Part shown: piece after piece, positions 34,396-64,000 of the stretch | How the letters are laid out: each line of letters opens with the position of its first letter | Position numbering within the stretch: the stretch's first letter is position 1 | DNA from: Alphaproteobacteria bacterium | GTDB taxonomy: Bacteria > Pseudomonadota > Alphaproteobacteria > JANQMY01 | DNA: 64,000 bases | Direction of reading: 5' to 3' | NCBI GenBank assembly: GCA_028289425.1 | Contig: JANQPL010000007.1 | Coordinates: 124,001-188,000 of the forward strand | The notes under the pieces: model-generated | What the model was told of the DNA's origin: nothing | Database searches by the model: none | Seen by the model: the letters and a program-made list of their open reading frames with translations, nothing else | Position numbers and translations under genes: made by a program

Positions 34396-34598
34396 GGCAG
34401 TCTTCCTCAGGCAACGGCGTGACGCGACCCTAGGAGCGACCCCGTTTGCTGTCGAGGGGCAAAACTGACACGGAGTATGGCATTTTGCGTCAGTGGAAAG
34501 TTCCGACCAACAAGTGAAGGTCTCCACAGCCTTGGCCTGATCCACATTCGTTATTGCCGTGGGTCCATGAGGCGGGACCGGGGCCGCAAGAGTTGGGT

Positions 34599-35870
34599 CT
34601 AAATTCCGGTCTTGACGTCGACGCGATCAATGGACCGAAATTGAACGCCCACCACATCCGGCGCGGCGCCGTCAGGATCGAGTGCCATATTGGGGAACCG
34701 CTGGGTCATCAATTTCAGAGCGTTTGCCATTTCCCGTCGGGCGAGTTGATTGCCAATGCACAAGTGCGCGCCCATCGAGAACATCACATGCGGCTTGCGT
34801 TCCCGGCGGAAGTTGAATTGATGAGGGTTATCCCATTCCGACGGATCGCGATTGGCATGGCCGATGCAGATCCAAAGATTTGCGTCTTTCGGGAGCTTGA
34901 CGCCGGCAAGCTCTACCTCTTTGGTGGTTCGCTTCGGAATAATCATGATGGGTCCGTTCCAGCGCAAGACTTCTTCAACCGTGTCAACGACAAGGCTTGG
35001 GTCAGAAGCAAGAGCAGACCAGCAACCGGGTGTGGCCAACGCCGTTCCTAGAGCCGTGCTCAGCGCGCGCGTGGTGGTTTCAATGGCCGCCGGCACCAGG
35101 GCCCGACAGAACGTGATCATCTCCTGATCGCTCAGCCTTTCGCCCTCAAGTTCCACGGACAACATATTGCTGATCAGATCATCGCCCGGCTTTTCCTTCC
35201 TTTCCTCGATCAGCACCTCGAATAGGTTCCCCATGTCTGCGGAGGCCCGAACCGCCTTGTCCCAATCAATGCTGGCGCTCATGATATCGGTCGCCAATTC
35301 GGCGAACCGTCCAATCTGCTCCGTCGGAAACCCGAAGATCTCACAGATCACCAGAGTCGGTACGCGACAGGTGAAATCAGCAACAAGATCAGTTGTTTCC
35401 TTCCGAGCTGATTTGTCCATCAGCTCTTGCATGATCGGAACAATGTAGTTGGATTCAAGATGATCCACGGATTGCTTGTTGAATGCCTGCATTATGAGAT
35501 CCCGCAGCGGCTTATGACGCGGCGGGTTTAATCCCGCGATTTGTCCGTCCCCCATCAAGATGTCCATTGATCCACCATAATTCTGATAGAATGACGGTTG
35601 GTCCGTCACGACGGTCTTGACCGCCTCCATTCCCAAGACCAGGAAGTAAGGATGTTCGGGGTTCATGGGCAAAATCGTGGGAAACGCAACGCCGTCCAGA
35701 ATGTTGTCCTGAACCTCAATAACATCGCCAAATTTACCGCGGGCATTTTCGAAGAACTCTTGGGGTTTTCGAACGACCTCCGGGTCCATCACCTTTGCTT
35801 CGATCGAACAAAAGAACTCCGGATCGATATCAACATTGGCAATTTTTTGCAGGCGTTCATTATCAATCAC
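34599..35870 (-). CDS. cytochrome P450
   Basis: This soluble bacterial P450 of about 423 residues has the I-helix AAIETTTR (Glu-Thr instead of the usual Asp-Thr), K-helix EEVLRW and the haem-binding FSMGAHLCIGNQLARREM, with the proximal Cys near residue 370. It is likely to hydroxylate a hydrophobic substrate such as a steroid or terpenoid side chain. No ferredoxin or reductase gene is in the window, so redox partners must come from elsewhere. I chose the GTG at 35870 (MIDNERLQKI), with GAGGGGAA upstream; a TTG five codons earlier also fits. It follows the CaiC-like ligase by 116 bp. Confidence 0.9.
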   Translation of the reverse strand: MIDNERLQKIANVDIDPEFFCSIEAKVMDPEVVRKPQEFFENARGKFGDVIEVQDNILDGVAFPTILPMNPEHPYFLVLGMEAVKTVVTDQPSFYQNYGGSMDILMGDGQIAGLNPPRHKPLRDLIMQAFNKQSVDHLESNYIVPIMQELMDKSARKETTDLVADFTCRVPTLVICEIFGFPTEQIGRFAELATDIMSASIDWDKAVRASADMGNLFEVLIEERKEKPGDDLISNMLSVELEGERLSDQEMITFCRALVPAAIETTTRALSTALGTALATPGCWSALASDPSLVVDTVEEVLRWNGPIMIIPKRTTKEVELAGVKLPKDANLWICIGHANRDPSEWDNPHQFNFRRERKPHVMFSMGAHLCIGNQLARREMANALKLMTQRFPNMALDPDGAAPDVVGVQFRSIDRVDVKTGI

Positions 35871-35986
35871 GGCAGTTCCCCTCAAACCCAGAGTGCGCTG
35901 ACTTCTTCATTAAACGGATCATTACTTAGAACACGGCAAATTGTTGCAGATTTCACTGGTTGGACAAAGCGTGCCGATGAGACTGG

Positions 35987-37627
35987 TCAGCCCCTTCGTT
36001 TCTGCTTATCTAGTGTCAGCCCCAGCTTCTCGAAATCCCAATCTTGCTCTCTGGCCCCCGCCTCCCGAAGCAAGTGTTTCATTACGCGGCCGTTTGCGTT
36101 GATCGGTAGAGCCGGAACAATCTCCACATATTTTGGAATTGCGAAGTAAGGAATCCTTTCGGCGAGGAACTCGAACAGCGCCGACGGGTTGGTTTCCTCA
36201 TTATCATTGTACTGAACACAAATTTTGATGTCGTCTTCGCCCATGGGCGAGGGGACGGCGAATGCAGCGACATTCGCGATCGCCGGATGTTGCCTTATCG
36301 CCGCTTCGAGCTCGAACGATGAAACGTTTTCACCCCGCCGGCGGATCATGTCCTTCTTTCGGTCGCTAAAGTGCAGAAAACCATGTCGATCGAGTGTTCC
36401 CAGATCTCCGGTGTGGTGCCAGAGATTTTTTGTCGCTTCTATCGTCGCCTCTGGGCGGCCCCAATACCCTTGGTAGATTGTTTCCGGCTTTTGCGGACGA
36501 ACAACAATTTCTCCAATTTCACCAGTCGGCATCGGCGTGTCGTTTTCATCGACAATCATGACGTCCATATGCGCTACAGGTTTGCCCAGAGCCTCGCGAT
36601 GCAATCGAGAGTCTTTTGAGCTCAATATCGCGATTGGGGTTGCCTCAGACTGACCATATGCGGCAGCAATGACCTCGACGCCGAACCGCTTTTCGAACGC
36701 GATTTGCTGCGCTTCGGGAAGCGGTATCCAAGTGCACCGCCGGAGTGAATTGTCAGCGTCGTCACTCTTTTCGAGTGTCGCGAGAATGGCCATTGCCATG
36801 GGGCCCACGCCATGGGCCGTCGTCGCACCGACTTCCCGAATCCGTTCCAAGAACCGGCTGGCACTGAATGTTTTTTCCAGGCAAACGGATGCGCCGGCCT
36901 GCAATGCCCCGCCAAGAATGAGAGCGTATCCGGCGGTGTGAAAAAGGGGAAAGGCCGTGAACAACACATCGTCGTGGCCAAACCACTCGCATTCTATGGC
37001 TGGGATCGAGGATGCCAAATAGTAGCCATGACTGCAGACGCAGCCTTTGGGCAAACCTGTGGTGCCGGACGAGTAGATAATGCAAATGGGATCTGAAACA
37101 CTCAATGTCGGCGGCGAAAAATTGTGCGTCTCTTTCAGAAGGTCGGCGAACTGCGAAACGTTCCAGCCATGTGTAACCTTTAGATCCGTTGGCGCATCCT
37201 CCAGTAGCACGACTGTCTTCAAATCTGGCAGGTTGCCGTCAAGCGCGACGACGCTTGCCAACCCATCGCCATCGGTTAGGAGAGCGGATGCTTGGCAATC
37301 CGCAAGTTGAAACTTTAGGAAGTCGCCTTTCAGATAAACATTCAATGGCACGGCAATGGCGCCAAGAAGTGCAAGGCCGATCAAGCCTAATACCGCCTCG
37401 TCCGTATTGTTCGAAATAACAGCGACCCTATCGCCCTTGTTGACGCCACGCGCTTGCAACCCGCCGGCGACAGCCAAACCCCTTTCATAGGCTTCTTTGT
37501 AGGTGGTCCATACGTCGCCGCACCGAAAGAATTTCTTGTCGGGCTGCTCGGCCGCCCATTGCGCCAGTTGCGCGTCGAAGGTGCGCGTACGCCATGCATT
37601 CTCGACTAGCTCTGCGTTCGATTTCAT
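35987..37627 (-). CDS. CaiC-like acyl-CoA ligase (copy 1)
   Basis: This 546-residue adenylate-forming ligase has YSSGTTGLPKGCV, AYGQSEATP, HHTGDLGTLDRHGFLHFSDRKKDMIRRRGENVSSFELE and the C-terminal N-G-R-V-M-K-H catalytic Lys region. The RKKDMIRRRGEN signature is typical of crotonobetaine/carnitine-CoA ligase (CaiC)-like enzymes, many of which act on other carboxylic acids. It is clearly paralogous to the gene at 50498, and both N-termini share the same R-Y-W/A-Q-W opening. It is separated from the upstream SDR by 27 bp, so the two are cotranscribed from the promoter region with the perfect palindrome at 38753. Confidence 0.9.
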   Translation of the reverse strand: MKSNAELVENAWRTRTFDAQLAQWAAEQPDKKFFRCGDVWTTYKEAYERGLAVAGGLQARGVNKGDRVAVISNNTDEAVLGLIGLALLGAIAVPLNVYLKGDFLKFQLADCQASALLTDGDGLASVVALDGNLPDLKTVVLLEDAPTDLKVTHGWNVSQFADLLKETHNFSPPTLSVSDPICIIYSSGTTGLPKGCVCSHGYYLASSIPAIECEWFGHDDVLFTAFPLFHTAGYALILGGALQAGASVCLEKTFSASRFLERIREVGATTAHGVGPMAMAILATLEKSDDADNSLRRCTWIPLPEAQQIAFEKRFGVEVIAAAYGQSEATPIAILSSKDSRLHREALGKPVAHMDVMIVDENDTPMPTGEIGEIVVRPQKPETIYQGYWGRPEATIEATKNLWHHTGDLGTLDRHGFLHFSDRKKDMIRRRGENVSSFELEAAIRQHPAIANVAAFAVPSPMGEDDIKICVQYNDNEETNPSALFEFLAERIPYFAIPKYVEIVPALPINANGRVMKHLLREAGAREQDWDFEKLGLTLDKQKRRG

Positions 37628-37654
37628 TTCTTCGTCACCGCGTACAGCACCCGG

Positions 37655-38464
37655 TCAGGCAGCCGTAAATCCCCCGTCAACAACAAACTCGGCGCCGGTA
37701 ATGAATTTGGAAAGGTCCGACCCAAGAAATGCCACGACTCCGGCAATATCGTCTGTCCTTCCCATTCTGCCCAGCGGCGTCGACATCTCTATCATTGACT
37801 CGACCGCCTCCACATTCGGTGCTGCCCCTGTTTCGACAAACGCACTCATGCCGCCGCGCCCCAATTCCGTGTCAACGCCACCCGGATGTACGGAGTTCAC
37901 GCGCAATTTAGCTCCGCCATGGCCAAACTCGACGGCCAGAGCCTTTGTTAGCAAAGTTAGTGCCCCTTTTGATGCGCAGTAGGCCGCGTTCAAGTTTCCG
38001 CCGACCACGCCATAAATCGACGATATGTTGACGATCGATCCGTACCCATTGCTTTTTTCTGCGGAACGATTCATCACTTCAAATGCAGTACGAATGCCGA
38101 TAGCCGCCCCTTCCACATTGATTGTGTAGGCATTGCGAAAATCTTCAATCGACATCGACATGAAGGGTTGCGACTTCATGATGCCGGCATTGTTGACAAG
38201 AATATTCAGGTCGCCGATCTCTTGGTCCACAAAGCCAATCAGTTTCTGCCATGACTCCTCACACGTCACATCTAAATGCCGTGATACGACGGACGAGGAC
38301 GGCTGCCCGGTATTGATGTCTTGGACACTTTTGGTCAATTTCTCTTCGTCGACATCCGTAGCCACAACCGAAACACCGTACTCTGCAAGTGTTCTTGCGA
38401 TTTCCAAACCGATCCCGCGTGCCGCACCGGTGACGATGGCGGTTTTGTTTTTGAGGTCATGCAT
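37655..38464 (-). CDS. short-chain dehydrogenase/reductase
   Basis: This 269-residue classical SDR has a full active site: TGAARGIG near residue 12, NNAGI, N-I-S-S-I-Y-G around the catalytic Ser, YCASK and a C-terminal FVVDGGFTA. An acidic residue after the second strand (ATDVDEEK) suggests NAD use. It may be a hydroxysteroid-dehydrogenase-type enzyme, although many SDRs share these features. I chose the ATG at 38464 (MHDLKNKTAIV); the open frame starts at a TTG 16 codons earlier. It is the first gene of the minus-strand block that continues to the PhyH gene at 33619. Confidence 0.88.
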   Translation of the reverse strand: MHDLKNKTAIVTGAARGIGLEIARTLAEYGVSVVATDVDEEKLTKSVQDINTGQPSSSVVSRHLDVTCEESWQKLIGFVDQEIGDLNILVNNAGIMKSQPFMSMSIEDFRNAYTINVEGAAIGIRTAFEVMNRSAEKSNGYGSIVNISSIYGVVGGNLNAAYCASKGALTLLTKALAVEFGHGGAKLRVNSVHPGGVDTELGRGGMSAFVETGAAPNVEAVESMIEMSTPLGRMGRTDDIAGVVAFLGSDLSKFITGAEFVVDGGFTAA

Positions 38465-38882
38465 TTTGTTTGCCCATTGCGCCGTGAGGTCTACATCAGT
38501 TCGTGAGGCCAATTTGAACGGCTTTGTTCTTTTGTCATATCAAGGAACCTTTGCGTCCGCCCGCATGAGCGGTTGCGCTTAGCTTAACGCCGTCGACGGG
38601 CATGTTCGCCGAAATGTCATCTATGGCGAAACTGTCGGCACACATGTCGCATGCGGCCCGCAATGCACAGTCACGTGTTCACGTCGGTTGTTAAAGTAGT
38701 CCCATGCTTCCCAAATTTTTCTTCCCATCAGTACTAAGTTTGAGCTAAATTTGTCAACTATATAGTTGACCGAATTCAGGATCAGTTCTCGGTTTAAGCC
38801 GCGATGCACCGAGGGGTGGGGAGCGCCTGTTCTTAACGCGGAAACCGGGGACAGAGAGTTACTCAACATAAGAACCATACCC
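38465..38882. promoter_or_regulatory. divergent promoter region with perfect palindrome
   Basis: This 418-bp gap separates the minus-strand block (SDR, CoA ligase, P450, PhyH) from the plus-strand molybdopterin oxidoreductase. Its only striking element is the 18-bp perfect palindrome at 38753-38770. No gene is seen in it. Confidence 0.7.
38753..38770. promoter_or_regulatory. perfect palindromic TetR-type operator
   Basis: GTCAACTATATAGTTGAC is a perfect 18-bp palindrome. Its core TCAACTATATAGTTGA matches the family of sites at 42142, 44436, 46706, 52218, 52450, 52642, 59066 and 63846. It lies 113 bp before the oxidoreductase start and could control both divergent units. Confidence 0.75.
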
Positions 38883-41117
38883 ATGACAGAGCATTTTAAG
38901 TCGACCTGCAGTCTCTGCGAGGCATGTTGCGGAGTCATATTGGAAATTGAGAAAGACCGTGTCCTGAACGTCATTCCGGACCGTGAAGATCCATTGTCTG
39001 GTGGATTTGTATGCCCCAAAGGGGCCGTCATCGGGGAGGTTGACGCCGATCCCGATCGGTTGCGCACACCCATGCTCAAGACCAACGGGTGCCACCGCCC
39101 GATTTCTTGGGACGATGCATTCAGCCAAATAGAAGAGCGAATTGTGCCGATCCAAAAGGAGCACGGAAGAGACGCTGTCGGTCTTTATGTGGGGAACGGT
39201 GCGGCACATAACTACAATCTGCACGGCAATCTACACCACCTTTTATCGAATCTCGGCTCACAGAACTTCTACACCTCCGGCACGGTTGATCAGGTTCCAC
39301 GGCAAGTGGTTTCAATGTTGATGTATGGCAGTGAACTGTCGGTTCCATTGCCCGACCTTGACCGATGCCAGTTACTCTGGGTCATTGGCGCGAACCCTGC
39401 CGAGTCGAACGGAAGCATGTTGACCACGCCAGGCTTCGTGGGACGAGCGAACGCGATAAGGCGGCGGGGCGGACGGGTGATCGTCATCGATCCCCAACGA
39501 ACGAGAACGGCCCAGCTTGCCTCGGAGCATTTGGCGATCAGACCGTCGGCGGACGGGGCGTTTTTGGCCGCTGTTGCAAACACTTTGTTGAAGCAGAAGC
39601 CGGTTGAAAACAATGCGCTCCGTTTGTGTGGCGACCTTACTTTTCTTGAAAGCTGGCTTGAACCCTTCACGCCCGAAAATGTTGCGGACGCGTGTCGCGT
39701 AGATGCCGAGACAATCACGAGGCTTGCAACGGAACTGCGCGAAACGGAAAAAGCCGCGGTCTATGGCCGTATGGGTACCACAACCCAAGCCTTCTCCTCG
39801 CTCGTTGTGTGGTTGATGGACCTGGTCAACATTCTGGCGGGCAACTTGGACGTGGAAGGCGGTGCCATGTTCGCAACACCGCTTTTCGCTCAAGAAAACT
39901 CGATGGGTGATCGCGTGCCGTCGCCAACGGCGGTTATCGGCAAATGGAGATCTCGCGTTTCGGGGCTGCCGGAAGCACTGCATCAATTGCCCGTTGCGTG
40001 CCTTCCCGAGGAAATCGAAACACCTGGTCAAGGGCAAATCAAAGCACTCGTAACGATCGCCGCAAATCCCGTGATCTCGAATCCCGATCCAAATCGCTTG
40101 AGGCGCGCCCTGTCGCAGCTGGAATTCATGGTCAGCTATGACACCTACATCAACGAGACAACACAGTATGCAGACTTAATTCTGCCGTCGCCATCTCGGC
40201 TCACACAATTCAACTACGATTCCTGGTTTTATCAGTTCGCTGTTCGAAATTATGGACGGTATACGCCGGCCTACAGAGCGCCCCACGCTGATGAGAAACC
40301 CGATCGAGAAGTTTCCCTAAGACTTGCGATGATCTTTGCGGGGCTTGGAGCCGACGGCGACATAGATGCTTTTGAGATGGCAGCGTTGCGTAACGAAATC
40401 GAAAATGAAATCGGCCGTCCGGCCTCCGAGATCTCGGGGCGCGACGTCGAAGAGATTTTCAATGACTTGTCGCGATTGCCTATCGAACTCAGACGGTTGG
40501 ATTTTATGTTTCGTATTGGCCCGTTCGGCGACGGCTTCGGGTCCAAGCACGGCATTAGGTTTGAAGATGTGGCGGCAGCCAGTTCCGGTCTTGATCTGGG
40601 CCCGTTAGTGCCCCGCTTGCCGAACCTGTTGCGTACCGCGTCCGGTCAGATCGACATCAGGCACGAATTCGCGCAGGAGGAACTGAGACGGCTCAAGGAA
40701 TGGGTCGACAAAGACAAACCTCGATATGTGCTGGTGGGCCGCCGGCAACTTCGCTCAAACAATTCCTGGATGCACAATATTTCGTCATTGCGGCACGCCA
40801 CACGTCAGTGCACGTTGCGTATGAATAGTGACGATGCAGCACAATCGGGTCTGAAGTCGGGAGATTTCGTGACGGTTTCGACAGAGCACGGAAGCATCAA
40901 GGTGCGGATCGAAACGACGGAATCGATTGCCAGCGGCGTCGTCTCTTTGCCCCATGGTTGGGGTCACGAAACGTTGGACGGAGGCCAGCGTGTCTCGTTG
41001 CAAGATCCGGGCGTGAATGTGAACCAACTGACCGGGCATAACCGGCGGGATCCGCTGACGAATACGGCTATTGTGAATGGCTACGCGGTTCAGATTGCAA
41101 CGTCGCAATGTGAGTGA
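38883..41117 (+). CDS. molybdopterin-dependent oxidoreductase (FdhF/MopB type)
   Basis: This protein of about 744 residues has an N-terminal [4Fe-4S] motif C-S-L-C-E-A-C-C with a later Cys in GGFVCPKGA. The molybdopterin guanine dinucleotide domains include SWDDAFSQIEE, IGANPAESNGS, VIDPQRTRTA and ANPVISNPDPNR, and the C-terminal cofactor domain has SLPHGWGH and N-Q-L-T. No twin-arginine signal is present, so it is cytoplasmic. Where formate dehydrogenases carry the Mo-ligating Cys or Sec, it reads T-S-G-T-V-D-Q-V-P-R, so the ligand may be Asp or absent. No partner subunit gene is adjacent. It may hydroxylate or dehydrogenate a pathway intermediate. The ATG at 38883 is preferred; a longer frame would start inside the operator. 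Confidence 0.88.
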   Translation: MTEHFKSTCSLCEACCGVILEIEKDRVLNVIPDREDPLSGGFVCPKGAVIGEVDADPDRLRTPMLKTNGCHRPISWDDAFSQIEERIVPIQKEHGRDAVGLYVGNGAAHNYNLHGNLHHLLSNLGSQNFYTSGTVDQVPRQVVSMLMYGSELSVPLPDLDRCQLLWVIGANPAESNGSMLTTPGFVGRANAIRRRGGRVIVIDPQRTRTAQLASEHLAIRPSADGAFLAAVANTLLKQKPVENNALRLCGDLTFLESWLEPFTPENVADACRVDAETITRLATELRETEKAAVYGRMGTTTQAFSSLVVWLMDLVNILAGNLDVEGGAMFATPLFAQENSMGDRVPSPTAVIGKWRSRVSGLPEALHQLPVACLPEEIETPGQGQIKALVTIAANPVISNPDPNRLRRALSQLEFMVSYDTYINETTQYADLILPSPSRLTQFNYDSWFYQFAVRNYGRYTPAYRAPHADEKPDREVSLRLAMIFAGLGADGDIDAFEMAALRNEIENEIGRPASEISGRDVEEIFNDLSRLPIELRRLDFMFRIGPFGDGFGSKHGIRFEDVAAASSGLDLGPLVPRLPNLLRTASGQIDIRHEFAQEELRRLKEWVDKDKPRYVLVGRRQLRSNNSWMHNISSLRHATRQCTLRMNSDDAAQSGLKSGDFVTVSTEHGSIKVRIETTESIASGVVSLPHGWGHETLDGGQRVSLQDPGVNVNQLTGHNRRDPLTNTAIVNGYAVQIATSQCE

Positions 41118-42880: not shown

Positions 42881-44110
42881 TTATGCTTTGGCAACCACTG
42901 GCACTTTTTTGTAACCGGAGACAATATTGGACCGGACTTTCACCGGCTCTCCAACCAGTTCGATGTTTGGAAACCTTTCCAACAGTGCTTCCCAAAGACA
43001 ACGCAGTTGCAGCTCGGCCAGCCGGGAACCGAGGCAATAATGCAACCCCTTGCCGAAGGAGAGGTGCTTCGGACCGCCGCGCCCAATCACGAGGTCGTAA
43101 GGCTGGTCATACACCTCTTCATCGTAATTGGCCGACGCGTACCAAAGAATTACACGATCGCCCTTTTTGATGGTTTTGCCGCGGAGTTCCGTATCCTGAA
43201 GTGCGGTACGGCGGATACAGTGAATGGGCGTTTGCCATCTGATGAATTCATCGATGGCGGGCACGATCTTCGAACGGTCGTCCCGCAACAGCTGGTATTG
43301 ATTGGGAAATTTGTTGAGTCCGACAATACTGCCGGCAATTGTTGATCGTGTTGTGTCATTGCCGCCGGTTACGAGCAGGATCATTGTACCAATGTAGTCG
43401 TCCGGCGAAAGCTTCTCCTTGTCGTTGTAAACAAGCATGGAAACGAGATCTTCGCCTGGGCCGGATTCGACCCGCTTGTTCCAAAGAAAGAAACAATAGT
43501 CCGTAAAATTCTCGAAATTCTGCTGCGCTGACGCGGGATCGAAAAACTCCGGTTCGTCTTGGCTGATGAGAAGGTTCGACCACTGCAAGAATTTTCCTCT
43601 GTCTTCCTGCGGTATGTCGAACAGTGTAGAGAGCATTTGCATAGGCAGCTCGTCTGCAACAATCTCACACCAATTAAACTCCTCACCAACAGGTACCTTG
43701 TCCAAGATTGCCGCAACACGCGCACGGACCTCGGATTCCAGGTTCTGTATTTTCGGCGGCGCGAACGCGGGCGCCACCATGGCGCGATAGGTAGAATGCT
43801 CCGGCGGGTCGAGCATGATCATGCTCTTGCCCGGAACCAAGTTGGTTTCCGGAGACGAGTCGTAAAACGCCGCTCCCCCATGTTTGTAATCGGCAGAATA
43901 AATCTCGTAGAGGCCGTCGATTTCTGCAACATCCTGATACTTGGTGACGGACCAGTACGCACCAAGATCATCGCTATCGATATAGTGGATCGGATCTTCT
44001 TTTCTCAACCGTTCAAAGACAGCATAATACTTCCCTGTCGCAAAAAGATCCGGTTGGCCGGCATCAATTTGTTCGATGGGGAGATGAACTTGCTCTGTTG
44101 GATTGTCCAT
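42881..44110 (-). CDS. cytochrome P450, CYP125/CYP142-like
   Basis: This 409-residue bacterial P450 has the I-helix VTGGNDTTR with the classical Asp-Thr pair, the K-helix D-E-F-I-R-W (ExxR), IRRTALQDTELRG, and haem-binding LSFGKGLHYCLGSRLAE with the Cys near 358. The GGNDTTR helix and RRTA-x-D-x-E-L-x-G region are shared with the CYP125/CYP142 group that oxidises the terminal carbon of sterol side chains, so that is the likeliest role. CYP families with other terpenoid substrates look similar. The ATG at 44110 (MDNPTEQVHL) is preferred over a TTG 13 codons earlier. It is divergent from the oxocamphor-hydrolase-like gene. Confidence 0.9.
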   Translation of the reverse strand: MDNPTEQVHLPIEQIDAGQPDLFATGKYYAVFERLRKEDPIHYIDSDDLGAYWSVTKYQDVAEIDGLYEIYSADYKHGGAAFYDSSPETNLVPGKSMIMLDPPEHSTYRAMVAPAFAPPKIQNLESEVRARVAAILDKVPVGEEFNWCEIVADELPMQMLSTLFDIPQEDRGKFLQWSNLLISQDEPEFFDPASAQQNFENFTDYCFFLWNKRVESGPGEDLVSMLVYNDKEKLSPDDYIGTMILLVTGGNDTTRSTIAGSIVGLNKFPNQYQLLRDDRSKIVPAIDEFIRWQTPIHCIRRTALQDTELRGKTIKKGDRVILWYASANYDEEVYDQPYDLVIGRGGPKHLSFGKGLHYCLGSRLAELQLRCLWEALLERFPNIELVGEPVKVRSNIVSGYKKVPVVAKA

Positions 44111-44561
44111 GGGGATACCTTGGTGTCTCACTTTATGTTTTATAGCCAATAGGCAAGAGGCCTCGAGGGTTTCCTGAAAACATGAAAGGAAAAATCTCCG
44201 AACGCCAGATCCTCGAATTTATGGAGAATCGCGACGGCTTCTCTCATAACATCTGTATACAAATAAATCTTGTTGTGTGTTCGAATCGAATATCGGTTCT
44301 CGAAACGGCCGATTCACGTGTCAGCATCGATCCGACTGGGTCGCGCAAGCACGCGCAACCGATGCTCTAACGCGACTGCCGTTGTTTCCTTCAAGTTCTT
44401 TTAGACAGAACGCCCATCAAAAACGCTATCAAAGTTCAACTGATCAGTCAATTGACAAAAATAAACCCTTGCCCAAAAATGCGCCGAACAGATACGCCCG
44501 GAGGTTTCTCCGCCGTGATCGTTGTTCGAGCGCGACATCGGCTCGTCACAGGAAACAGACT
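44111..44561. promoter_or_regulatory. divergent region P450 / oxocamphor-hydrolase-like gene
   Basis: This 451-bp gap contains one operator of the TetR type at 44436-44451. An open frame reaches back from the hydrolase gene through this region, but its translation shows no homology and a proper ribosome site lies only before 44562. No other feature is visible. Confidence 0.6.
44436..44451. promoter_or_regulatory. TetR-type operator
   Basis: TCAACTGATCAGTCAA fits the consensus, with inner TTCAACTGATCAGT symmetry. It lies 111 bp before the ATG at 44562 and 326 bp before the divergent P450 gene. Confidence 0.65.
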
Positions 44562-45314
44562 ATGCGTCCCGACTATTTCGATCGATATCCGACTATTCAT
44601 TTTGAGCGCAACCAAAGGGGTGTGCTGAGCGTCAGACTGCATTCCGACGATGGTCCGGTTGTTTACACCGAGCAGCATCACGAAGATTGGTGCGGTGCGT
44701 TCTACGATATTGGTGCGGACCGGGATAATCGCGTGGTCGTCATTACCGGTACCGGCGACTCATTCATCGATGCGTATGGGTGGAAGGGAACCTATTCGCG
44801 CGCATCCGACTGGGATGACAAATCCTATGAAGGACGCAGGATGATAAGGAACTACCTGGATATCGAGGTGCCCATCATCGCTGCGGTAAACGGCCCGGCG
44901 AGCGTCCACAATGAGTTGGCGGTTCTTGCCGATATCGTTTTGGCGTCGACAACAGCGACCTTTTCCGACGCCCCTCACTTTCCAAACCGTGTGCCGCCGG
45001 GCGATGGCATTCAAGTGATCTGGCAGGAACTTCTTGGGTTGAATCGGGGGCGGTATTTTCTCTTGACCGGACAAGAGCTGTCCGCGGAAGAGGCGTATCA
45101 GTTAGGTGTGGTATCGGAAGTCTTGGTGCCAGACAAACTGATGACCAGGGCCCACGAGTTGGCCGATCAGCTTTCAAAAGTGGGCACAATGACACTGAGA
45201 ATGACAAAGTCAGTCCTTGTGCAGAATTTACGCCGAAAAATGGATGAACAATTGACGGCGTCAATCACATTGGAAGGGATGGCCGTCATGGACATGCTGA
45301 TGAAGCAAAGATGA
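44562..45314 (+). CDS. 6-oxocamphor-hydrolase-like crotonase (beta-diketone hydrolase)
   Basis: This 250-residue crotonase-fold protein looks much more like 6-oxocamphor hydrolase than like enoyl-CoA hydratases. It shares the run F-x-D-I-x-x-D-R-x-N, IEVPIIAAVNGP, LADIVLA, PHFP, PGDG and NRGRYFLLTGQEL. The residues proposed as catalytic in that enzyme are all kept: His40 in HHED, His116 in VHNE, His139 in APHFP and Asp148 in PGDG. It is therefore predicted to open a cyclic 1,3-diketone by retro-Claisen C-C cleavage, without CoA. The ATG at 44562 follows CAGGAAACAG. A TetR-type operator is 111 bp upstream. The substrate may be a ring diketone of a terpenoid or steroid. Confidence 0.85.
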   Translation: MRPDYFDRYPTIHFERNQRGVLSVRLHSDDGPVVYTEQHHEDWCGAFYDIGADRDNRVVVITGTGDSFIDAYGWKGTYSRASDWDDKSYEGRRMIRNYLDIEVPIIAAVNGPASVHNELAVLADIVLASTTATFSDAPHFPNRVPPGDGIQVIWQELLGLNRGRYFLLTGQELSAEEAYQLGVVSEVLVPDKLMTRAHELADQLSKVGTMTLRMTKSVLVQNLRRKMDEQLTASITLEGMAVMDMLMKQR

Positions 45315-45475: not shown

Positions 45476-46570
45476 TCAGGTTAGAAGCTCCAACGTATCG
45501 TGGTCCATCGCCGCCCAGGCAAACTGCATGGCCTGCATAAGGTTGACGGTTTCCAACTGAAACTGCCCCTTTTCGTCGCCATTGCCCACCCAAGTGACCA
45601 ATCCGAATATGACGCCGCAGCGATATTTCCACCACGCCTCGTCAAAGTCCGGCGCATCGACACCATAGGCTTCCAGTCGAACGAGATAATGTTTGAGCAA
45701 TGACTGTTCCCACTTACGCCGATCGGTAACGTCGAGGGCGCTCACCAGAAAGTAAGGAACGTCGTATTGCCACGACGCATGCCGGCAGTTCCAGTCGTAA
45801 AGCCCTCCTGCGCCCGATCCATCGACAAACGTGTTGCCGATATGCGGATCGCCGTGGGCGATGGTATACGGACCTTCGTTTTGTATGCTTTGGCCTTTCT
45901 TCAAAGCCGCATACATTCGGCCGGCATCCTTGAATTTTCGAGGCAGTCCCAATCCGCGCGGCAGCGAACAGTAATACGCCCATTCATCTTGCTGAACGAG
46001 AGACTCATGCCTTTCGCCCAAACTGCCGTGATGCAGATTTTCGAGCCACTCGGAAATCGGCGGTTCATGCAACGCCGGATTGTTCCAGCCATATGCATGG
46101 AGCTTCGCCAATGTGTCGAGCACACCCGCAGCCTGGTCATAGGTGTAAACTTTGGTTGCATGTCCGAATGTCACATTTCGCGCCGACAGATCCTCCATGA
46201 TAATTACTGCATGGTCGTCGGTGGGATAAAACCCAACAAAGAAGATCGTAGGTGCATTGACCTTCGACGGAATGGCGATATCTCTGTAGGCGAACATTTC
46301 GGCGGCTTGCACGGCATAGAACCAAGACGGATCCTGGCGCTTGAAGCCCCCTTTTATATACACAACCTCTGGAAGACCGTGCTTCTTTCCCACGTCGTTG
46401 AAACTGAGCCTAACCTTCACTTTCACCGCAGCCCCTTGAAGAATCTGTTCTATCTTGGCCGACCTCACTTGCAGGCCAGAATAGAATTGGGACAAGGTGT
46501 CCGTTAGCCATTCTGCATTTATGGCTTGAATCATTTCCGATTCACTTACATCGCGCGTTTGATAGGTCAT
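45476..46570 (-). CDS. phosphotransferase, ecdysteroid-kinase-like (APH fold)
   Basis: This 364-residue kinase-fold protein has an N-lobe with VYIKGGFK (nucleotide-binding Lys) and IIMEDLS. Its C-lobe has AHGDPHIGNTF (Brenner motif, catalytic Asp near 239, Asn) and GLYDWNCR as the metal-binding Asp. This arrangement fits the APH/EcKinase group, which includes insect ecdysteroid 22-kinases and many uncharacterised bacterial genes near steroid and lipid catabolism. It may phosphorylate a hydroxyl on the substrate or an intermediate. A related but distinct APH-fold gene is at 54200. It is divergent from the SDR at 46885, with a TetR-type operator between. Confidence 0.85.
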   Translation of the reverse strand: MTYQTRDVSESEMIQAINAEWLTDTLSQFYSGLQVRSAKIEQILQGAAVKVKVRLSFNDVGKKHGLPEVVYIKGGFKRQDPSWFYAVQAAEMFAYRDIAIPSKVNAPTIFFVGFYPTDDHAVIIMEDLSARNVTFGHATKVYTYDQAAGVLDTLAKLHAYGWNNPALHEPPISEWLENLHHGSLGERHESLVQQDEWAYYCSLPRGLGLPRKFKDAGRMYAALKKGQSIQNEGPYTIAHGDPHIGNTFVDGSGAGGLYDWNCRHASWQYDVPYFLVSALDVTDRRKWEQSLLKHYLVRLEAYGVDAPDFDEAWWKYRCGVIFGLVTWVGNGDEKGQFQLETVNLMQAMQFAWAAMDHDTLELLT

Positions 46571-46884
46571 GACCTCCCTACAGCTTCGACTTCGGAGTCT
46601 TGGGTCTGTACAAAACGGATCCCTTGCCGACGTGTTGGCGGCTTTGTCTTTAGAGCAATTGGATACGCCCTTGGCTTGACAAGCTTATTAAAAGCTGAAT
46701 TAAATTCAACTAAATAGTTGGAATTCTGGTGTGAGTGGCAAACGACTGCGACTTCGCTTCTGACACATGCAAAGACAATGCAACAAGCCTGGAACACAAA
46801 ACCCGCTTCGCTTGAGGCAACCAAACAAAGGCCAGATATGTTGACCGTCACACCCGCGAATCTTTCGCTTAGTGAGCGCCAAAG
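46571..46884. promoter_or_regulatory. divergent promoter region kinase / MFE2-like SDR
   Basis: This 314-bp gap contains a clear plus-strand promoter, TTGACA (46676-46681), 18 bp, TTAAAT (46700-46705), immediately followed by a TetR-type operator at 46706-46721. It should drive the SDR and crotonase genes. Nothing else is seen. Confidence 0.7.
46706..46721. promoter_or_regulatory. TetR-type operator abutting promoter
   Basis: TCAACTAAATAGTTGG begins at the base after the -10 hexamer TTAAAT. A bound repressor would cover the transcription start. The same layout is found at 59036-59081. Confidence 0.72.
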
Positions 46885-47820
46885 ATGAGCATGGGGGAAG
46901 CTCATTTTCTCGACGGGAAAGTCATTGCTGTGACCGGCGCCGGACGTGGTATTGGGCGAGCGGTGGCAATCCATTGTGCACGGATGGGTGCGTCCGTCGT
47001 GGTCAATGATTGTGCCGTTACAAGCTTCGGCGAGCAACAATCGGATCAGCCGGCGCAAGAGGTGGCCTTGGAGATACGAGCTTCGGGCGGACAAGCCGTC
47101 GCGAATGTTGCCAATGTCGCCGATTACGAGGCCGCCGAGACAATAGTCCAAGACGCAATCTCAAATTTTGGACGGATCGATTGCGTGGTGAACAATGCCG
47201 GAATTCTGCGGGACAACTATTTTCACAAATTGAGCTTGGAAGATTGGAATGCGGTCGTAGATGTACACTTGAATGGATCTTTCAATGTCGCAAGAGCGGC
47301 AAGTGTTATCTTCAAAGAGCAACGCCGCGGTTGCTTCGTCCACTTCACGTCAACTTCCGGATTGATCGGCGATTATGGCCGGGCCAACTACGCCGCGGCG
47401 AAGATGGGCATTGTCGGGTTATCGAAGGGAATCGCACTCGATCTGGCGCATTGCAATGTCAGGTCCAATTGTGTTGCGCCGTTTGCTTGGACGCGGATGG
47501 TAGAGGCTAGCAAAGTCCGATCGGAAGAGGAACAACGCATCGTCGATCGCCTTCGCGTTATGCGTCCGGAGAAAGTTGCGCCTCTTGTGGCCTTTTTGTG
47601 CTCAGACGCTGCTTCGAAAATAAGCGGGCAGATAATTGGTATTCGCAAGAATGAAATCTACTTGTTCAGCCAGCCCAGGCCTTCGCTTACCCTTTATTCT
47701 GAAGCCGGATGGACACAAAAAAACTTGTCGAATTTATTTTCACAATCGGTGACGGCTGTCGCCTATCCATTAGAGACGTCAAACGACGTATTTTCGTGGG
47801 ATGTGGGCGGCGACGAATGA
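46885..47820 (+). CDS. MFE2-like (3R)-hydroxyacyl-CoA dehydrogenase (SDR), copy 2
   Basis: This 311-residue SDR has TGAGRGIG, NNAGILRDNYFHK, TSTSGLIG with the catalytic Ser, and YAAAK. Its C-terminal extension of about 65 residues (from GIRKNEIYLFSQPRPSLT) is like that of the MFE2/HSD17B4 dehydrogenase domain. It is paralogous to the gene at 14926 but lies in the TetR-type regulon. It is predicted to oxidise a (3R)-hydroxyacyl-CoA or a 17-hydroxyl-like group. The gene is followed by a crotonase 145 bp downstream and is preceded by a TTGACA-N18-TTAAAT promoter with operator. Confidence 0.9.
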   Translation: MSMGEAHFLDGKVIAVTGAGRGIGRAVAIHCARMGASVVVNDCAVTSFGEQQSDQPAQEVALEIRASGGQAVANVANVADYEAAETIVQDAISNFGRIDCVVNNAGILRDNYFHKLSLEDWNAVVDVHLNGSFNVARAASVIFKEQRRGCFVHFTSTSGLIGDYGRANYAAAKMGIVGLSKGIALDLAHCNVRSNCVAPFAWTRMVEASKVRSEEEQRIVDRLRVMRPEKVAPLVAFLCSDAASKISGQIIGIRKNEIYLFSQPRPSLTLYSEAGWTQKNLSNLFSQSVTAVAYPLETSNDVFSWDVGGDE

Positions 47821-47965
47821 GTAAAAAGCCGGGGTGGGAAGAATGTGAGCACATAACAATACCATCAGTCTGCGAAACTTGAAGGCGCTCTGACTGACCG
47901 ATTTGAACCGTGCCTAAAATGGCTGGTGCAACGAAAGTAGTCTAAAAAAGAATAGAGAGATATTG

Positions 47966-48814
47966 ATGTCTGACCTGGTGATTTACGAGAAAAAAGCCGA
48001 ACGCGTCGCGCGCATCGTTCTGAACCGCCCGGACAAGGGGAATGCTCAGACCAATCGGCTGCTTTACGAAATCGATGCCGCTCTTATGAAAGCCTCTCAT
48101 GACGATGACATTCGAGTGATCATATTGGCGGGCAATGGGAAGCACTTTTCGACAGGACACGACCTTGCGGATTTCGATGCCAATTTGAATGACGTTGAGC
48201 CTTTAGGACACTGGGGTGGATATCGTCAGCCGGCGCAAGAAGGCTATATGGCTTTTGAGGAAGAGGCCTATTTTGGGCTTTGCTGGCGGTGGCGGAACAT
48301 ACCCAAGCCGATGATCGCGGAAGTCAAAGGCCGCGTTATTGCAGGCGGACTTATGCTCATGTGGGTATGCGACCTTATCATTGCCGACGATAAAACCACT
48401 TTTGCCGACCCAGTGGTCACCAGTGGCGTCAACGGGGTGGAGTACTTCGCACATCCGTGGGAGTTCGGACCCCGGAAAGCAAAAGAAATGCTGTTTACAG
48501 GACGCGCCATGACCGCCGAGATGGCGGTTCAATGCGGGATGGTAAATCGAGCAGTGCCCGCGGAGAATCTTGAGCAAGAGGTCTTGGACCTGGCGGTGGA
48601 AATCTCGCAACAATCGTCCATGGGGTTGAAATTGGCGAAGCTCGCCGTCAATCAAACGCAAGATGCTCAAGGGCTATGGACGGCTTTGAGGGGGGCCATG
48701 AGTTTGCAGCACTTGTCCCACGCGAACAACTGGGCTGTGCATGGCGATTCTGCACCACCGGACGCATTCGGGGAGATTGGAAAGATACTTAAGAAATCTC
48801 CTCTTGGCCGATAG
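47966..48814 (+). CDS. enoyl-CoA hydratase/isomerase family protein
   Basis: This 282-residue crotonase has GHDLADF and VIAGGLMLMWVCDLIIADD in the oxyanion region, then FADPVVTSGVNGVEYFAHPWEFG. The usual P-E of hydratases in that region is replaced by D-P-V-V, so the chemistry may be isomerase- or lyase-like rather than simple hydration. The extended active-site loop (about 75-100, with VEPLGHWGGYRQ) is longer than in housekeeping hydratases and suggests a bulky substrate. The ATG at 47966 follows GAGAGATATTG; an in-frame TTG precedes it by one codon. It is cotranscribed with the SDR at 46885. Confidence 0.87.
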   Translation: MSDLVIYEKKAERVARIVLNRPDKGNAQTNRLLYEIDAALMKASHDDDIRVIILAGNGKHFSTGHDLADFDANLNDVEPLGHWGGYRQPAQEGYMAFEEEAYFGLCWRWRNIPKPMIAEVKGRVIAGGLMLMWVCDLIIADDKTTFADPVVTSGVNGVEYFAHPWEFGPRKAKEMLFTGRAMTAEMAVQCGMVNRAVPAENLEQEVLDLAVEISQQSSMGLKLAKLAVNQTQDAQGLWTALRGAMSLQHLSHANNWAVHGDSAPPDAFGEIGKILKKSPLGR

Positions 48815-48960: not shown

Positions 48961-50454
48961 TTAAATGTCAGTGGGTAACCCGATTTGCACCGACTTCGAA
49001 TGGGTCATGTCATAAATACCGTCATAACCACCTTCTCGGCCAAAACCACTCATTTTCATGCCACCGAAGGGCAAGTTGCTCGGGAATTTGTGATGGGAGT
49101 TAATGCAGACGTTCCCCGTATGCAGAGAATCTGCAACCTTCAATGCCCGCGACATGGTCTCGGTGAAGACATAGCTTGAGAGTCCGTAGCGGGAATTATT
49201 GGCAATCTGGATCGCCTCTTCATCGGTCTTGAAACGAATGATCGCCAAGACGGGCCCAAACACTTCGTTCTGGGCAAGTGAGCTATCCGCTCCAACCCCC
49301 GCAAACACCGTCGGTTCGATAAAATATCCAGCAGATAACTCACCGTTCAAACGTTTCCCCCCAGCGACCAACTCGCCATCCCCATCGTTTTTGGATTTCT
49401 CTATAACGCTCAGTATACGGTTGCAGTGATGCTCGCTTACAATCGGACCCATGAAGGTTGATTTATCAAGCGGATCGCCGACTTTAATCGTCGGAAGAGC
49501 GTCGACAACGGCTTGGACGACGGTGTCATAAAGAGATTCGTGCACAAGCAATCGGGAGCCCGCGATGCACGCTTGTCCACTCTGAGTGATCACGCCTACT
49601 TGAAGCGCGGTCTGAATGGCGAGCTCGAGATTTGCATCTTCAAAAATTATGCTGGCCGATTTTCCTCCCAGCTCAAATGCCACCGGTGTCAAGTTTTCCG
49701 CCGCCGACGCCATAATTGCGCGCGCGGTAACATCGCCCCCGGTGAAGGACACTTTGTTGACCAGCGGATGCGTGACGAGCTTGTTTCCGGCTTCGGCATT
49801 TCCTGGCGTGATATTGACGACACCGTTGGGCACGCCGGCCTCGCGACAAATCTCTCCAAATCTCAATACGGACCATGGGGCCAGGTCGGATGGCTTCAAG
49901 ACGAGCGTATTGCCTGCCGCAAGGGCGGCGGCGACTTTGAGGCCCATAAATGCCATCGGCGCGTTGTACGCGACAATCCCGGCGACAACGCCGTAGGGTT
50001 CGCGGCTTGTGAAATCGAAAGATCCTGGCTGCAGGGGTGGGGGAACGCTGCCTTCAAACTTGTCCGACCATCCGGCGTAGTAGCGAAACCACTCCGCAGG
50101 GGCGTCGGACGAAATCGCCTCGCCAAACAAGACGGGTGTCCCGTTCTCAACGGCCCCTAACAGGCCGAGCCCCTCGCGGTCTTGCTCAAGCAGGTCCGCA
50201 ATTCGGAGCAGGATGTTTCGCCTCGCCGCCGACCCCAAGTTCTTCCATCGCGGAAATGCTTCGTGTGCCGTTTGAACGGCGCTGTCAATGTCCTCTATTC
50301 CTGCCAATTGAAACGTCTTTTGAGCTTCGCCCGTCGCTGGATTTATGTGTGCCACTTCGATACCGGACCGCGCGTGCACGTGTGTACCGTCGATGAAAAG
50401 CAATCCGGCAGGCAGATGCTTTTCAGCAACCGTGCGATGGTCTTGAGAGTTCAT
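48961..50454 (-). CDS. aldehyde dehydrogenase family protein
   Basis: This 497-residue NAD(P)+-dependent aldehyde dehydrogenase has GIVAYNAPM holding the oxyanion Asn, SFTGGDVTA for the cofactor, the general base Glu in FELGGKS (near 262), the nucleophile in GQACIAG (near 296) and NEVFGPVL. It should oxidise an aldehyde produced from a primary alcohol, for instance the terminal carbon after P450 hydroxylation, giving the acid that the CoA ligase activates. The gene for a CaiC-like ligase lies 43 bp upstream on the same strand. The ATG at 50454 is preceded by GAGGAAACGAGC; a longer frame adds 14 codons. Confidence 0.93.
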   Translation of the reverse strand: MNSQDHRTVAEKHLPAGLLFIDGTHVHARSGIEVAHINPATGEAQKTFQLAGIEDIDSAVQTAHEAFPRWKNLGSAARRNILLRIADLLEQDREGLGLLGAVENGTPVLFGEAISSDAPAEWFRYYAGWSDKFEGSVPPPLQPGSFDFTSREPYGVVAGIVAYNAPMAFMGLKVAAALAAGNTLVLKPSDLAPWSVLRFGEICREAGVPNGVVNITPGNAEAGNKLVTHPLVNKVSFTGGDVTARAIMASAAENLTPVAFELGGKSASIIFEDANLELAIQTALQVGVITQSGQACIAGSRLLVHESLYDTVVQAVVDALPTIKVGDPLDKSTFMGPIVSEHHCNRILSVIEKSKNDGDGELVAGGKRLNGELSAGYFIEPTVFAGVGADSSLAQNEVFGPVLAIIRFKTDEEAIQIANNSRYGLSSYVFTETMSRALKVADSLHTGNVCINSHHKFPSNLPFGGMKMSGFGREGGYDGIYDMTHSKSVQIGLPTDI

Positions 50455-50497
50455 GCTCGTTTCCTCATCGTGTTTGGTGGAGCTGGCAGGTTGCAAA

Positions 50498-52132
50498 CTA
50501 CCGTCTGTCCTCTCGCTTCACCGCGTAGCCAAGGGCGTCAAAATCAATCGCATTGTCATTCGACCGCTTTTTAAGCTTGTGTTTCATGACCCTGCCGGTT
50601 GCAGTGAGCGGAAGATTGTCTAGGAATTCGACATAGCGCGGCATGGCAAAATAGGGCAGTGTTTCCTGCAAATACGAAAACATTTCTTCGGCTGAGAATT
50701 CTTGGTCCGGTTCCAGAACAATACAAAGTTTTATGTCGTCTTCGCTTAGCTCGGACGGGACAGGATGAGCGGCAACCGCTGAGATTTTCGGATGCCGAAC
50801 AACGGCGTTCTCAACTTCAAAGGCGGCGACATTCTCGCCGCGACGCCGCATGGAATCGGATTTCCTGCCACGGAACACAATGTAACCGTCTTCATCCATA
50901 ATCCCTAGATCGCCTGTGTGAAACCAACCCTCTTCAAAGGCTTTCTCTGTTGCTTCAGGCTTGTTCCAATAGCCTTGAAACATCACTTCAGGCTCGCGCG
51001 GCCGGACACATATCTCTCCTTCCTTCCCGATGGGTAATTCTGCGTTGCCTTCGTCGCGAATCGTGACTTCGTGATGGCTTGGCGCGCGGCCGACGGTTTG
51101 CCGCTTCTCATCCAGAACATCAATTGAACCAAACGTGGCGGGACTCACTTCAGTTTGTCCGTATCCCAATGGAAAAACTTTTGTGGCAAACCGGCGCTCG
51201 AACCGAGCTTGATCTTCAGGAGTGATGGGTTGAATCATGAAGTGGCGTATTTGGTGCTTCGTGTCATACTCGCTCGGGGCCGTAGATAGGATCGCCTGCC
51301 CCATGGCGCCGATGCAATGCGCGAGAGTTGCCTGCTCTTCGGCGGCTCTTCGAATAAAACTTCTGGCGCTAAAAGACGGCTCAAAGTTAATCGGTATGCC
51401 GCCTTGCAAGGCTTCCATCATGAATATCGCGCCTGACGCCAGGTGAAACAGGGGCATCCCAGTGAAAACCTTGTCATCAACGGATGTGAAGCCCATTTCG
51501 TAAAATGCCCACGGAATGGCTGTATAGTAGCCATTGCTCAGCATGCACCCTTTCGGCAATCCGGTCGTGCCGGACGTGTACATTATCGAAATCAGATCTT
51601 CCTTTTTCAGGTCGACCTCACGAAACGCAGCTGAAGAATTCGCGATCTCCTCGAACATGTACGTGTCGAGCGCCGTCCACGCACCCGTCGTGGCCGCAAG
51701 CTCTTCATGTGAGATGTTGACCCCGATCAGTTTTTTGATATGGGGAAGGTCGCTGCGCAGATTGCATATTTCTTTGATTGCGGGCTGATCTGCAATGACG
51801 ATGCCGGCGGATGCGTCGTCAATTTGATACTGCAAGAAGGTGCCTTTAAGAAACGTGTTCAACGGAACCTGAATCGCCCCCATTTTTGCCAATGCGTAGA
51901 TCAGCAAGACCATCTCTATCGTGTTCGGCAAAACAATCGCGACCCGGTCCCCTTTCTTGATGCCGAGCTCTTGCAAACCTGCGGCCAGGCGTGTGGTTTG
52001 GGTTTCAAGGTCTGAGAACGTCAACCAAGGCGAACCGCATTTCACGAAAGGCGCATCGGGGGTCGTTTCCGCCCAATATCTAAGTCTGTGAGAAACGACA
52101 CGCCAATTTCGCATGTCTCGAACAATATCCAC
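50498..52132 (-). CDS. CaiC-like acyl-CoA ligase (copy 2)
   Basis: This 544-residue adenylate-forming ligase has YTSGTTGLPKGCML, LGYGQTEVSP, FHTGDLGIMDEDGYIVFRGRKSDSMRRRGENVAAFEVE and C-terminal T-G-R-V-M-K-H. It is a clear paralogue of the ligase at 35987, with the same domain order and near-identical signature segments. The GTG start at 52132 is preceded by GGAGGGAATA. Together with the downstream ALDH it forms an aldehyde-to-acyl-CoA module. A near-perfect TetR-type operator lies 86 bp upstream at 52218-52233. Confidence 0.92.
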   Translation of the reverse strand: MDIVRDMRNWRVVSHRLRYWAETTPDAPFVKCGSPWLTFSDLETQTTRLAAGLQELGIKKGDRVAIVLPNTIEMVLLIYALAKMGAIQVPLNTFLKGTFLQYQIDDASAGIVIADQPAIKEICNLRSDLPHIKKLIGVNISHEELAATTGAWTALDTYMFEEIANSSAAFREVDLKKEDLISIMYTSGTTGLPKGCMLSNGYYTAIPWAFYEMGFTSVDDKVFTGMPLFHLASGAIFMMEALQGGIPINFEPSFSARSFIRRAAEEQATLAHCIGAMGQAILSTAPSEYDTKHQIRHFMIQPITPEDQARFERRFATKVFPLGYGQTEVSPATFGSIDVLDEKRQTVGRAPSHHEVTIRDEGNAELPIGKEGEICVRPREPEVMFQGYWNKPEATEKAFEEGWFHTGDLGIMDEDGYIVFRGRKSDSMRRRGENVAAFEVENAVVRHPKISAVAAHPVPSELSEDDIKLCIVLEPDQEFSAEEMFSYLQETLPYFAMPRYVEFLDNLPLTATGRVMKHKLKKRSNDNAIDFDALGYAVKREDRR

Positions 52133-52215: not shown

Positions 52216-52235
52216 TTTCAACTATATGGTTGAAA
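52216..52235. promoter_or_regulatory. TetR-type operator, near-perfect palindrome
   Basis: TTTCAACTATATGGTTGAAA is a 20-bp palindrome with one mismatch. Its core is identical to the 38753 palindrome except for one base. It lies 84 bp upstream of the CaiC-like ligase GTG. Confidence 0.72.
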
Positions 52236-52374: not shown

Positions 52375-52500
52375 ATGTTCCGTTCAATCGTACCTTTTTC
52401 GCCCCACGCAGGAGCGACAGCCCAAATTTTAGTGCGCGTCGTACATAATTCAACCGAAAAGTTGATTTATTTATTCGCCGGCGCTAGAGCCGGGTGGTGA
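52375..52500 (+). CDS. possible small protein, 41 residues
   Basis: A short frame begins with ATG at 52375, four bases after the strong ribosome site GGGAGGAAGG, just downstream of the hairpin at 52317-52355. The product (MFRSIVPFSPHAGA...) has no recognisable domain or signal peptide. It overlaps the operator at 52450. It may be a real small protein, the start of a decayed gene, or chance. Confidence 0.25.
   Translation: MFRSIVPFSPHAGATAQILVRVVHNSTEKLIYLFAGARAGW
52450..52465. promoter_or_regulatory. TetR-type operator, weaker match
   Basis: TCAACCGAAAAGTTGA departs from the consensus at one position only and directly follows CATAAT, a plausible -10 hexamer. It lies 467 bp before the DapB-like gene. 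Confidence 0.5.
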
Positions 52501-59035: not shown

Positions 59036-59084
59036 TTGACAAGGTGACGGAAGCTTTGCTTTAATTCGACCATTCAGTTGAATT
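59036..59084 (+). promoter_or_regulatory. promoter with abutting TetR-type operator
   Basis: TTGACA (59036-59041), 18 bp, TTTAAT (59060-59065) is a strong sigma-70-like promoter. The operator TCGACCATTCAGTTGA (59066-59081) begins right after the -10. The flanks extend the symmetry to AATT at each end (59063-59084). GGAG and the GTG start at 59097 follow closely, leaving a very short leader. This layout matches the promoter at 46676. Confidence 0.75.
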
Positions 59085-63774: not shown

Positions 63775-63845
63775 TATTGCGCTCCGTTTGTAATCCTTCG
63801 CACTTGGACCCCCAATTTCATGCGATAGTAGTCGATTACCAATTT

Positions 63846-63861
63846 TCAACTAAGTAGTCAA
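63846..63861. promoter_or_regulatory. TetR-type operator, Rieske promoter
   Basis: TCAACTAAGTAGTCAA matches the consensus. It lies 72 bp before the Rieske oxygenase start on the minus strand. Beyond it, up to the window end at 64000, no gene is seen. Confidence 0.68.
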
Positions 63862-64000
63862 TATTTTTGAAAGGGGAGTGTCTCTCGTAGACGATCAGCC
63901 GCACATGGGAGGCGTGTGGTTTCGGCCAAAATATGCGCCTGCGACGTTCCCATGACATAAACTTGCAATCTCGCGCGCCAGCGACGCTCTCAGTCCGTTT

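Follow-up and report, generated by a model that had tools for sequence, protein, structure and literature searches.

The window (the whole 64,000-nucleotide stretch that we analysed) comes from the genome of a little known Alphaproteobacterial family. It contains a gene for a predicted beta-diketone hydrolase resembling 6-oxocamphor hydrolase (OCH) and the Anabaena enzyme ABDH. Two related genomes, G092 (locus L019) and G001 (locus L020), retain the arrangement. The genes of interest are given here by position and strand.

33619-38512, minus strand: candidate operon of an SDR (SDR38), an acyl-CoA ligase, a second P450 (34599-35885) and a PhyH protein, from gene order and spacing
38766-41117, plus strand: molybdopterin oxidoreductase (DMSO-reductase/Fdh-like), by domain match; a homologue lies near the OCH-type gene in L020 (56%) and a more distant one in L019
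41145-41975, plus strand: SDR41, a candidate alcohol dehydrogenase; a homologue is beside the OCH-type gene in L019 and L112
42165-42854, plus strand: TetR42, a TetR-family regulator by domain match, possibly the ligand-responsive repressor of the regulon
42881-44149, minus strand: CYP153-like cytochrome P450 by sequence match, divergent from the hydrolase gene; a 68% orthologue is at the OCH-type locus of G001
44562-45314, plus strand: predicted OCH/ABDH-type beta-diketone (C-C) hydrolase, 250 amino acids, from sequence search, motifs, tree and AlphaFold model
45476-46570, minus strand: EcKL/APH-type kinase, by domain match
46885-48814, plus strand: SDR47 and ECH48 (47963-48814; enoyl-CoA hydratase, PRK08290 subfamily), by domain matches
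48961-52132, minus strand: ALDH and the acyl-CoA ligase AMP51 (50498-52132); the ligase is conserved at 65-66% near the OCH-type gene in L019 and L020
59085-61399, plus strand: acyl-CoA dehydrogenase subunits ACAD59 and ACAD60, conserved at 84% and 67% in L019
62761-63849, minus strand: KshA_C/Rieske oxygenase (KshA-like), by domain match; a 78% orthologue is divergent from the OCH-type gene in L019

A CoA-transferase III gene is also among the neighbours, and SDR genes are found at 37655, 41145 and 46885. A sequence-only reading of this DNA had described a cluster with two P450s, SDRs and a KshA-like oxygenase, and all of these are present. The divergent P450 is CYP153-like, by a strong match to solved members of CYP153 (E 5.6e-109 to CYP153A7, 3rwl); this family is known for terminal alkane hydroxylation. 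A simple pattern search of the window found no ferredoxin-like motifs near it. EcKL/APH-type kinases occur repeatedly beside the locus, at 45476-46570 and 54200-55279 in the window and at 10032-11108 and 17311-18387 in L112. On the minus strand, 21087-23687 is an 866-amino-acid open frame with no Pfam match; it could be spurious or could encode a large protein that is uncharacterised.

The hydrolase gene is preceded by a ribosome-binding-like sequence, CAGGAAACAG, 5′ of the ATG at 44562. A longer in-frame alternative begins at GTG 44277; we prefer the ATG because homologues start at about 44562 and because an operator-like site at 44435 (described below) is 5′ of it. The in-register reading of the opposite strand is interrupted by stops. 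Among solved structures, the best phmmer matches are ABDH (6.7e-69) and OCH (7.7e-65), with 43% and 44% identity, and the third-ranked match is EchA15 at 1.5e-25, a gap of about 40 orders of magnitude. The only Pfam match is ECH_1, no NCBIfam model is over its cut-off (the best scores 120 bits, with 292 needed), and nearly all annotated plasmid homologues are labelled “enoyl-CoA hydratase/isomerase family protein”. It is therefore fair to say, as had been anticipated, that such a protein would be misannotated as an enoyl-CoA hydratase. Behind the homology-based enoyl-CoA hydratase label there is, almost certainly, an enzyme that cleaves a C-C bond of 1,3-diketones without CoA.

The five catalytic positions of OCH are all present in the aligned hydrolase.

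44679-44681, plus strand: codon of His40 (OCH His45)
44907-44909, plus strand: codon of His116 (OCH His122), which separates the OCH/ABDH clade from CoA-type crotonases
44976-44978, plus strand: codon of His139 (OCH His145)
45003-45005, plus strand: codon of Asp148 (OCH Asp154)
45273-45275, plus strand: codon of Glu238 (OCH Glu244)

The column of OCH His122 could be placed independently, because the H122A entry 1szo reads NAPE where 1o8u reads NHPE. In 54 family members His40, His116, His139 and Asp148 are invariant and Glu238 is nearly so. The sequence-only reading had named the first four residues as the catalytic set and missed Glu238. Its correspondence with OCH is borne out by the alignment; as a diagnostic set the four do not serve, and only His116 separates the groups. 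His40, His139, Asp148 and Glu238 are not diagnostic by themselves because they are common to CoA-type crotonases of the same genome, five of whose seven top paralogues show the pattern H-G-H-D-E. We dropped the argument that four residues prove an OCH, since these paralogues have three of them plus Glu238. The own-genome crotonases L002, L003, L004, L006 and L008 combine CoA-type oxyanion motifs with His/His/Asp/Glu at the OCH catalytic positions.

The CoA oxyanion motifs AGGD and GLG are both lost in the hydrolase and retained by its own-genome paralogues. Where a paralogue reads, for example, FCAGGD and GLGA, the hydrolase reads FIDAYG and VHNE. Judged by sequence, what sets it apart is His116 together with the exchange of these two segments. 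It likewise lacks the Glu that enoyl-CoA hydratases have at the position of rat E164, where it has His139; ABDH-type proteins also have His there (PMC3584854 tables). By counting, Glu118 would occupy the E144 position.

An AlphaFold2 model built from 54 sequences has a mean pLDDT of 93.3 and a pTM of 0.91. Its crotonase fold is nearest to 1o8u and 2j5g, matching OCH and ABDH with Z of about 39 and rmsd of 0.9-1.1 Å over 245 residues, and the best CoA-type crotonase reaches only Z 31 at 2.3 Å (all CoA crotonases have Z of 31 or less). This near-gapless superposition, which compares chains and not individual side chains, agrees with the OCH-type C-C hydrolase proposed from the letters of the gene, as do the top matches and the five positions. 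A loop at about residues 65-90 is unlike that of OCH, and the model is less confident there.

In a quick maximum-likelihood tree with only seven own-genome paralogues as outgroup, OCH, ABDH and the hydrolase branch away from the CoA-type crotonases (SH-aLRT 99). The hydrolase falls in an uncharacterised clade of ten rows with Alphaproteobacterial (81% and 70%), Deltaproteobacterial and Sphingomonad members (SH-aLRT 99). Because the adjacent clade is that of cyanobacterial ABDH (87) and the OCH clade is separate, “OCH-type” is correct as a kind and “an OCH” is incorrect; the protein lies outside 6-oxocamphor hydrolase proper and nearer ABDH than the first assignment implied. Matches at E 1e-45 were found in 4 of 385 sampled genomes of the class. 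OCH-type proteins in which His/His/His/Asp is intact have a wide distribution (L026-L098) that takes in SAR202 and other Chloroflexota, Binatota, Acidimicrobiia and cyanobacteria, and characterised members are mostly lacking among them. L085 and L064 have tandem copies, a second homologue adjoining the first.

In L019, the KshA-like gene is the immediate divergent neighbour of the OCH-type gene (the two are 17 kb apart in the window), and the homologues of AMP51 (65%), SDR41 and ACAD59/60 are within 9 kb of it. Near the OCH-type gene of G001 are the homologues of CYP153, AMP51 (66%), SDR41 and the molybdoenzyme. A Rieske ring-hydroxylating subunit adjoins AMP51 in both relatives. An ECH48-related gene is directly 3′ of the OCH-type gene in Novosphingobium L025, and Sphingobium pMI1 has the order SDR, OCH, ECH, ligase with a P450, a ferredoxin and a reductase. 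The DMSO-reductase-family molybdoenzyme accompanies OCH-type genes in the window, in L020 and in L019; a distant homologue (25%) does so in Novosphingobium US6-1 (L011:8015-9958). Across 90 family loci, SDR genes are frequent in the vicinity of OCH-type genes (35), and GMC oxidoreductases are found close to them and not farther out (8 against 0). P450s were found at seven of the 90 loci, at a density not above that of the outer flanks, with a panel of few reference P450s that undercounts them. We therefore dropped a family-wide association with P450s, and a P450-fed route is not general across the family.

A palindromic, TetR-type operator-like sequence, TTCAACTnnnnAGTTGAA, occurs in seven copies within the 38-64 kb part of the window. 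All seven are intergenic, and we found them by scanning with a matrix trained only on the sites of the two relatives (threshold 18 bits or more).

38752-38771: SDR38 operon and Mo-oxidoreductase
44435-44451: divergent CYP153 and hydrolase genes; TTCAACTGATCAGTCAA, reading TTGACTGATCAGTTGAA on the minus strand, with the matrix hit at 44434
46704-46723: EcKL kinase and SDR47-ECH48
52216-52235: upstream of AMP51
52448-52467: a second site in the intergenic region of AMP51 and 52848
59064-59083: upstream of ACAD59
63844-63863: promoter of the KshA-like gene, with a seed-type palindrome at 63845

One hundred shuffles gave a mean of 0.04 sites and a maximum of one. No site was found in 58 kb of control sequence from this genome (L107, L108 and L111), and L109, on the window's own contig, has one weaker site. 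Two further operator-like sites, at 7055 and 16290, are weak and within genes, and we treated them as chance. The sites at 44435 and 63845 are not independent evidence, because the former was the seed of the search and the latter was in view when the pattern was drawn; the five remaining sites are. Exact matches to YRACTNNNNAGTTGAA number six in the 5.4 Mb genome, four of them inside one 26-kb part of the window's contig. Outside the window, a site is found 48 bp 5′ of a TonB receptor gene (L110). L110 also has a second TetR gene, at 2014-2793, a short way outside the window.

Sites in G001 precede a TonB receptor, the second-P450 homologue, CYP153/EcKL (two sites), AMP51, the OCH-type gene (one mismatch) and SDR41. 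The L019 sites are upstream of ECH58/ACAD11, KshA/OCH (an operator-type palindrome between the two genes), SDR41/TetR42 and the Rieske gene. The upstream region of TetR42 in the window has a weak match (42140), and its L019 homologue has the operator in its divergent promoter. From the motif shape and this L019 site, we infer that a TetR protein may bind the sites. None of the Sphingomonad or Deltaproteobacterial members tested has the operator, so it was seen in close relatives only. The shared operator ties the hydrolase gene independently to oxygenation, oxidation and CoA activation, and it backs the logic of hydroxylation, oxidation and hydrolysis put forward in the sequence-only reading. 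We found no published description of this co-regulated catabolic gene set. The hydrolase is a new representative of a known kind of enzyme, inside a regulon without earlier characterisation.

We consider it fairly probable that the protein, a crotonase of the OCH/ABDH branch, hydrolyses beta-diketones without CoA and acts in a single TetR-controlled regulon for a hydrophobic polycyclic substrate imported through TonB. The substrate is probably steroid- or terpenoid-like. After uptake by the TonB receptor, CYP153 and the KshA-like Rieske oxygenase would hydroxylate it, perhaps together with the second P450 of the SDR38 operon, and the SDRs would oxidise the product to a beta-dione. In the hydrolase, the pair His139-Asp148 with Glu238 would activate water for attack on one carbonyl of the 1,3-dione, and His40 and His116 would bind the second carbonyl or enolate, replacing the lost CoA oxyanion hole. 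These single-residue roles are presumably those of the published work on OCH and ABDH. Retro-Claisen C-C cleavage would open the dione ring to a keto acid, AMP51 would then form the acyl-CoA, and ECH48, ACAD59/60 and other genes may carry out beta-oxidation. Alternatively, CYP153 and ACAD59/60 may act in side-chain oxidation, unconnected with the diketone step.

Cleavage of a 1,3-dione ring of a mono- or sesqui/diterpenoid, as OCH does with 6-oxocamphor, is a credible reading that we hold only tentatively. Beyond this precedent, it is consistent with the operons of P450, ferredoxin, SDR, OCH, ECH and ligase genes in Sphingobium pMI1 and Novosphingobium B1, and with OCH-clade members of Sterolibacteriaceae and Acrocarpospora that also adjoin P450 and SDR genes. 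The adjacent P450, however, is CYP153-like rather than camphor-type, and we recognised no Baeyer-Villiger or other camphor-pathway genes in the window.

Somewhat doubtful is the opening of a steroid ring, either as a CoA-independent aerobic route beside the 9,10-seco pathway or as a stand-in for a missing C/D-ring hydrolase. The nearest solved relatives of ACAD59 (Tcur3483, 4x28; also 6wy8/6wy9) point this way, 4x28 and 6wy8/6wy9 being what we take to be steroid acyl-CoA dehydrogenases, as do the KshA_C domain and the EcKL-type kinase under the common operator. No protein of the window's genome (99.75% complete), or of G001 and G092, its two closest OCH-bearing relatives, scores above the cut-off of PF01144, the model for class I CoA transferases, to which the ring-C hydrolase IpdAB belongs; this absence weighs less for being that of one Pfam model. 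With KstD and Hsa proteins present and PF01144 missing, non-canonical C/D-ring degradation is possible. Anaerobic steroid degraders, moreover, reportedly have a beta-diketone hydrolase for ring A (Jacoby et al. 2025, cited in PMC12507874). Against steroid-ring opening, contig C12 carries a canonical-looking 9,10-seco cluster, KstD-KshA-HsaA-HsaD-HsaC-KstD, at about 49.7-57.4 kb (L108), with matches that are strong yet under the NCBIfam equivalog cut-offs and with no operator sites. The usual ring A/B route is therefore probably separate from the regulon, and we dropped the window as the steroid-ring cluster of this genome. The KshA-like protein of the window is no close KshA (best match to a solved KshA 1.9e-24, to 4qdc; C12 has a far better KshA_C match), and the window has no recognised KstD gene. 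The earlier proposal, taken as a steroid-ring cleavage that replaces the 9,10-seco route, is not supported in view of the C12 gene set and this distant oxygenase.

Cleavage of an acyclic beta-diketone made elsewhere in the pathway, with no ring involved, appears improbable. ABDH, the nearest characterised clade, accepts acyclic diketones too, but its complex 2j5s holds a cyclohexyl product and the ring-type oxygenases under common regulation point to a cyclic substrate. A CoA-dependent enzyme of ordinary beta-oxidation, either an enoyl-CoA hydratase or a CoA-ester hydrolase, would account for the ECH_1 match and for the four of five catalytic residues common to own-genome crotonases, but is very hard to credit given the loss of both oxyanion motifs, the presence of His116 and the far stronger match to ABDH and OCH.

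The combination of His116 with lost AGxD and GLG motifs is a clear marker that sets C-C hydrolases apart from true enoyl-CoA hydratases, two groups that databases merge. The defined co-regulated gene set offers a direct route to the inducer and the substrate. A more far-reaching possibility is that an OCH-type crotonase, sharing one TetR operator with CYP153, the KshA-like Rieske oxygenase and the molybdoenzyme, opens a ring of a sterol or polycyclic terpenoid aerobically and without CoA, by retro-Claisen cleavage; on present evidence this is rather unlikely. If true, aerobic hydrolytic ring opening would join the few known routes, as a further way of breaking rings beside the 9,10-seco, 4,5-seco and 2,3-seco routes.

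A curcumin beta-diketone hydrolase was reportedly described by Hashimoto in 2024. The closest known systems are ABDH (alr4455; 2j5g, 2j5s) and OCH from Rhodococcus sp. NCIMB 9784 (1o8u, 1szo), both alike in identity, fold (about 0.9-1.0 Å for ABDH) and the five catalytic positions. ABDH is in the sister clade and OCH shares the P450/SDR-type context. Unlike ABDH, which has a cyanobacterial context, the hydrolase belongs to a Proteobacterial catabolic regulon, forms part of a separate well-supported clade and has another pocket loop. Unlike OCH, it lies outside the OCH clade and has Tyr35 in place of Trp40. EchA15-like crotonases (3qk8, 3q1t, 7m3w) are of the same superfamily, with 27-30% identity and a weaker structural match. 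Among these, 3q1t of M. avium has the His40, His139, Asp148 and Glu238 positions, and its aligned residue at His116 is not His (PMC3584854 tables). That crotonases misnamed ECH can be beta-diketone hydrolases was published earlier, and in 2013 the M. avium “ECH” was re-assigned by SALSA as a probable beta-diketone hydrolase using four of these residues (PMC3584854). EchA20, BadI and MenB perform retro-Claisen/Dieckmann ring chemistry like that proposed here, CoA-dependent retro-Claisen ring opening in the case of EchA20 and BadI, but they act on CoA esters and are absent from the best sequence matches of the hydrolase (PMC5380842). The enzyme of Jacoby et al. 2025 resembles it, by its title, in steroid-ring beta-diketone hydrolysis, in an anaerobic route.
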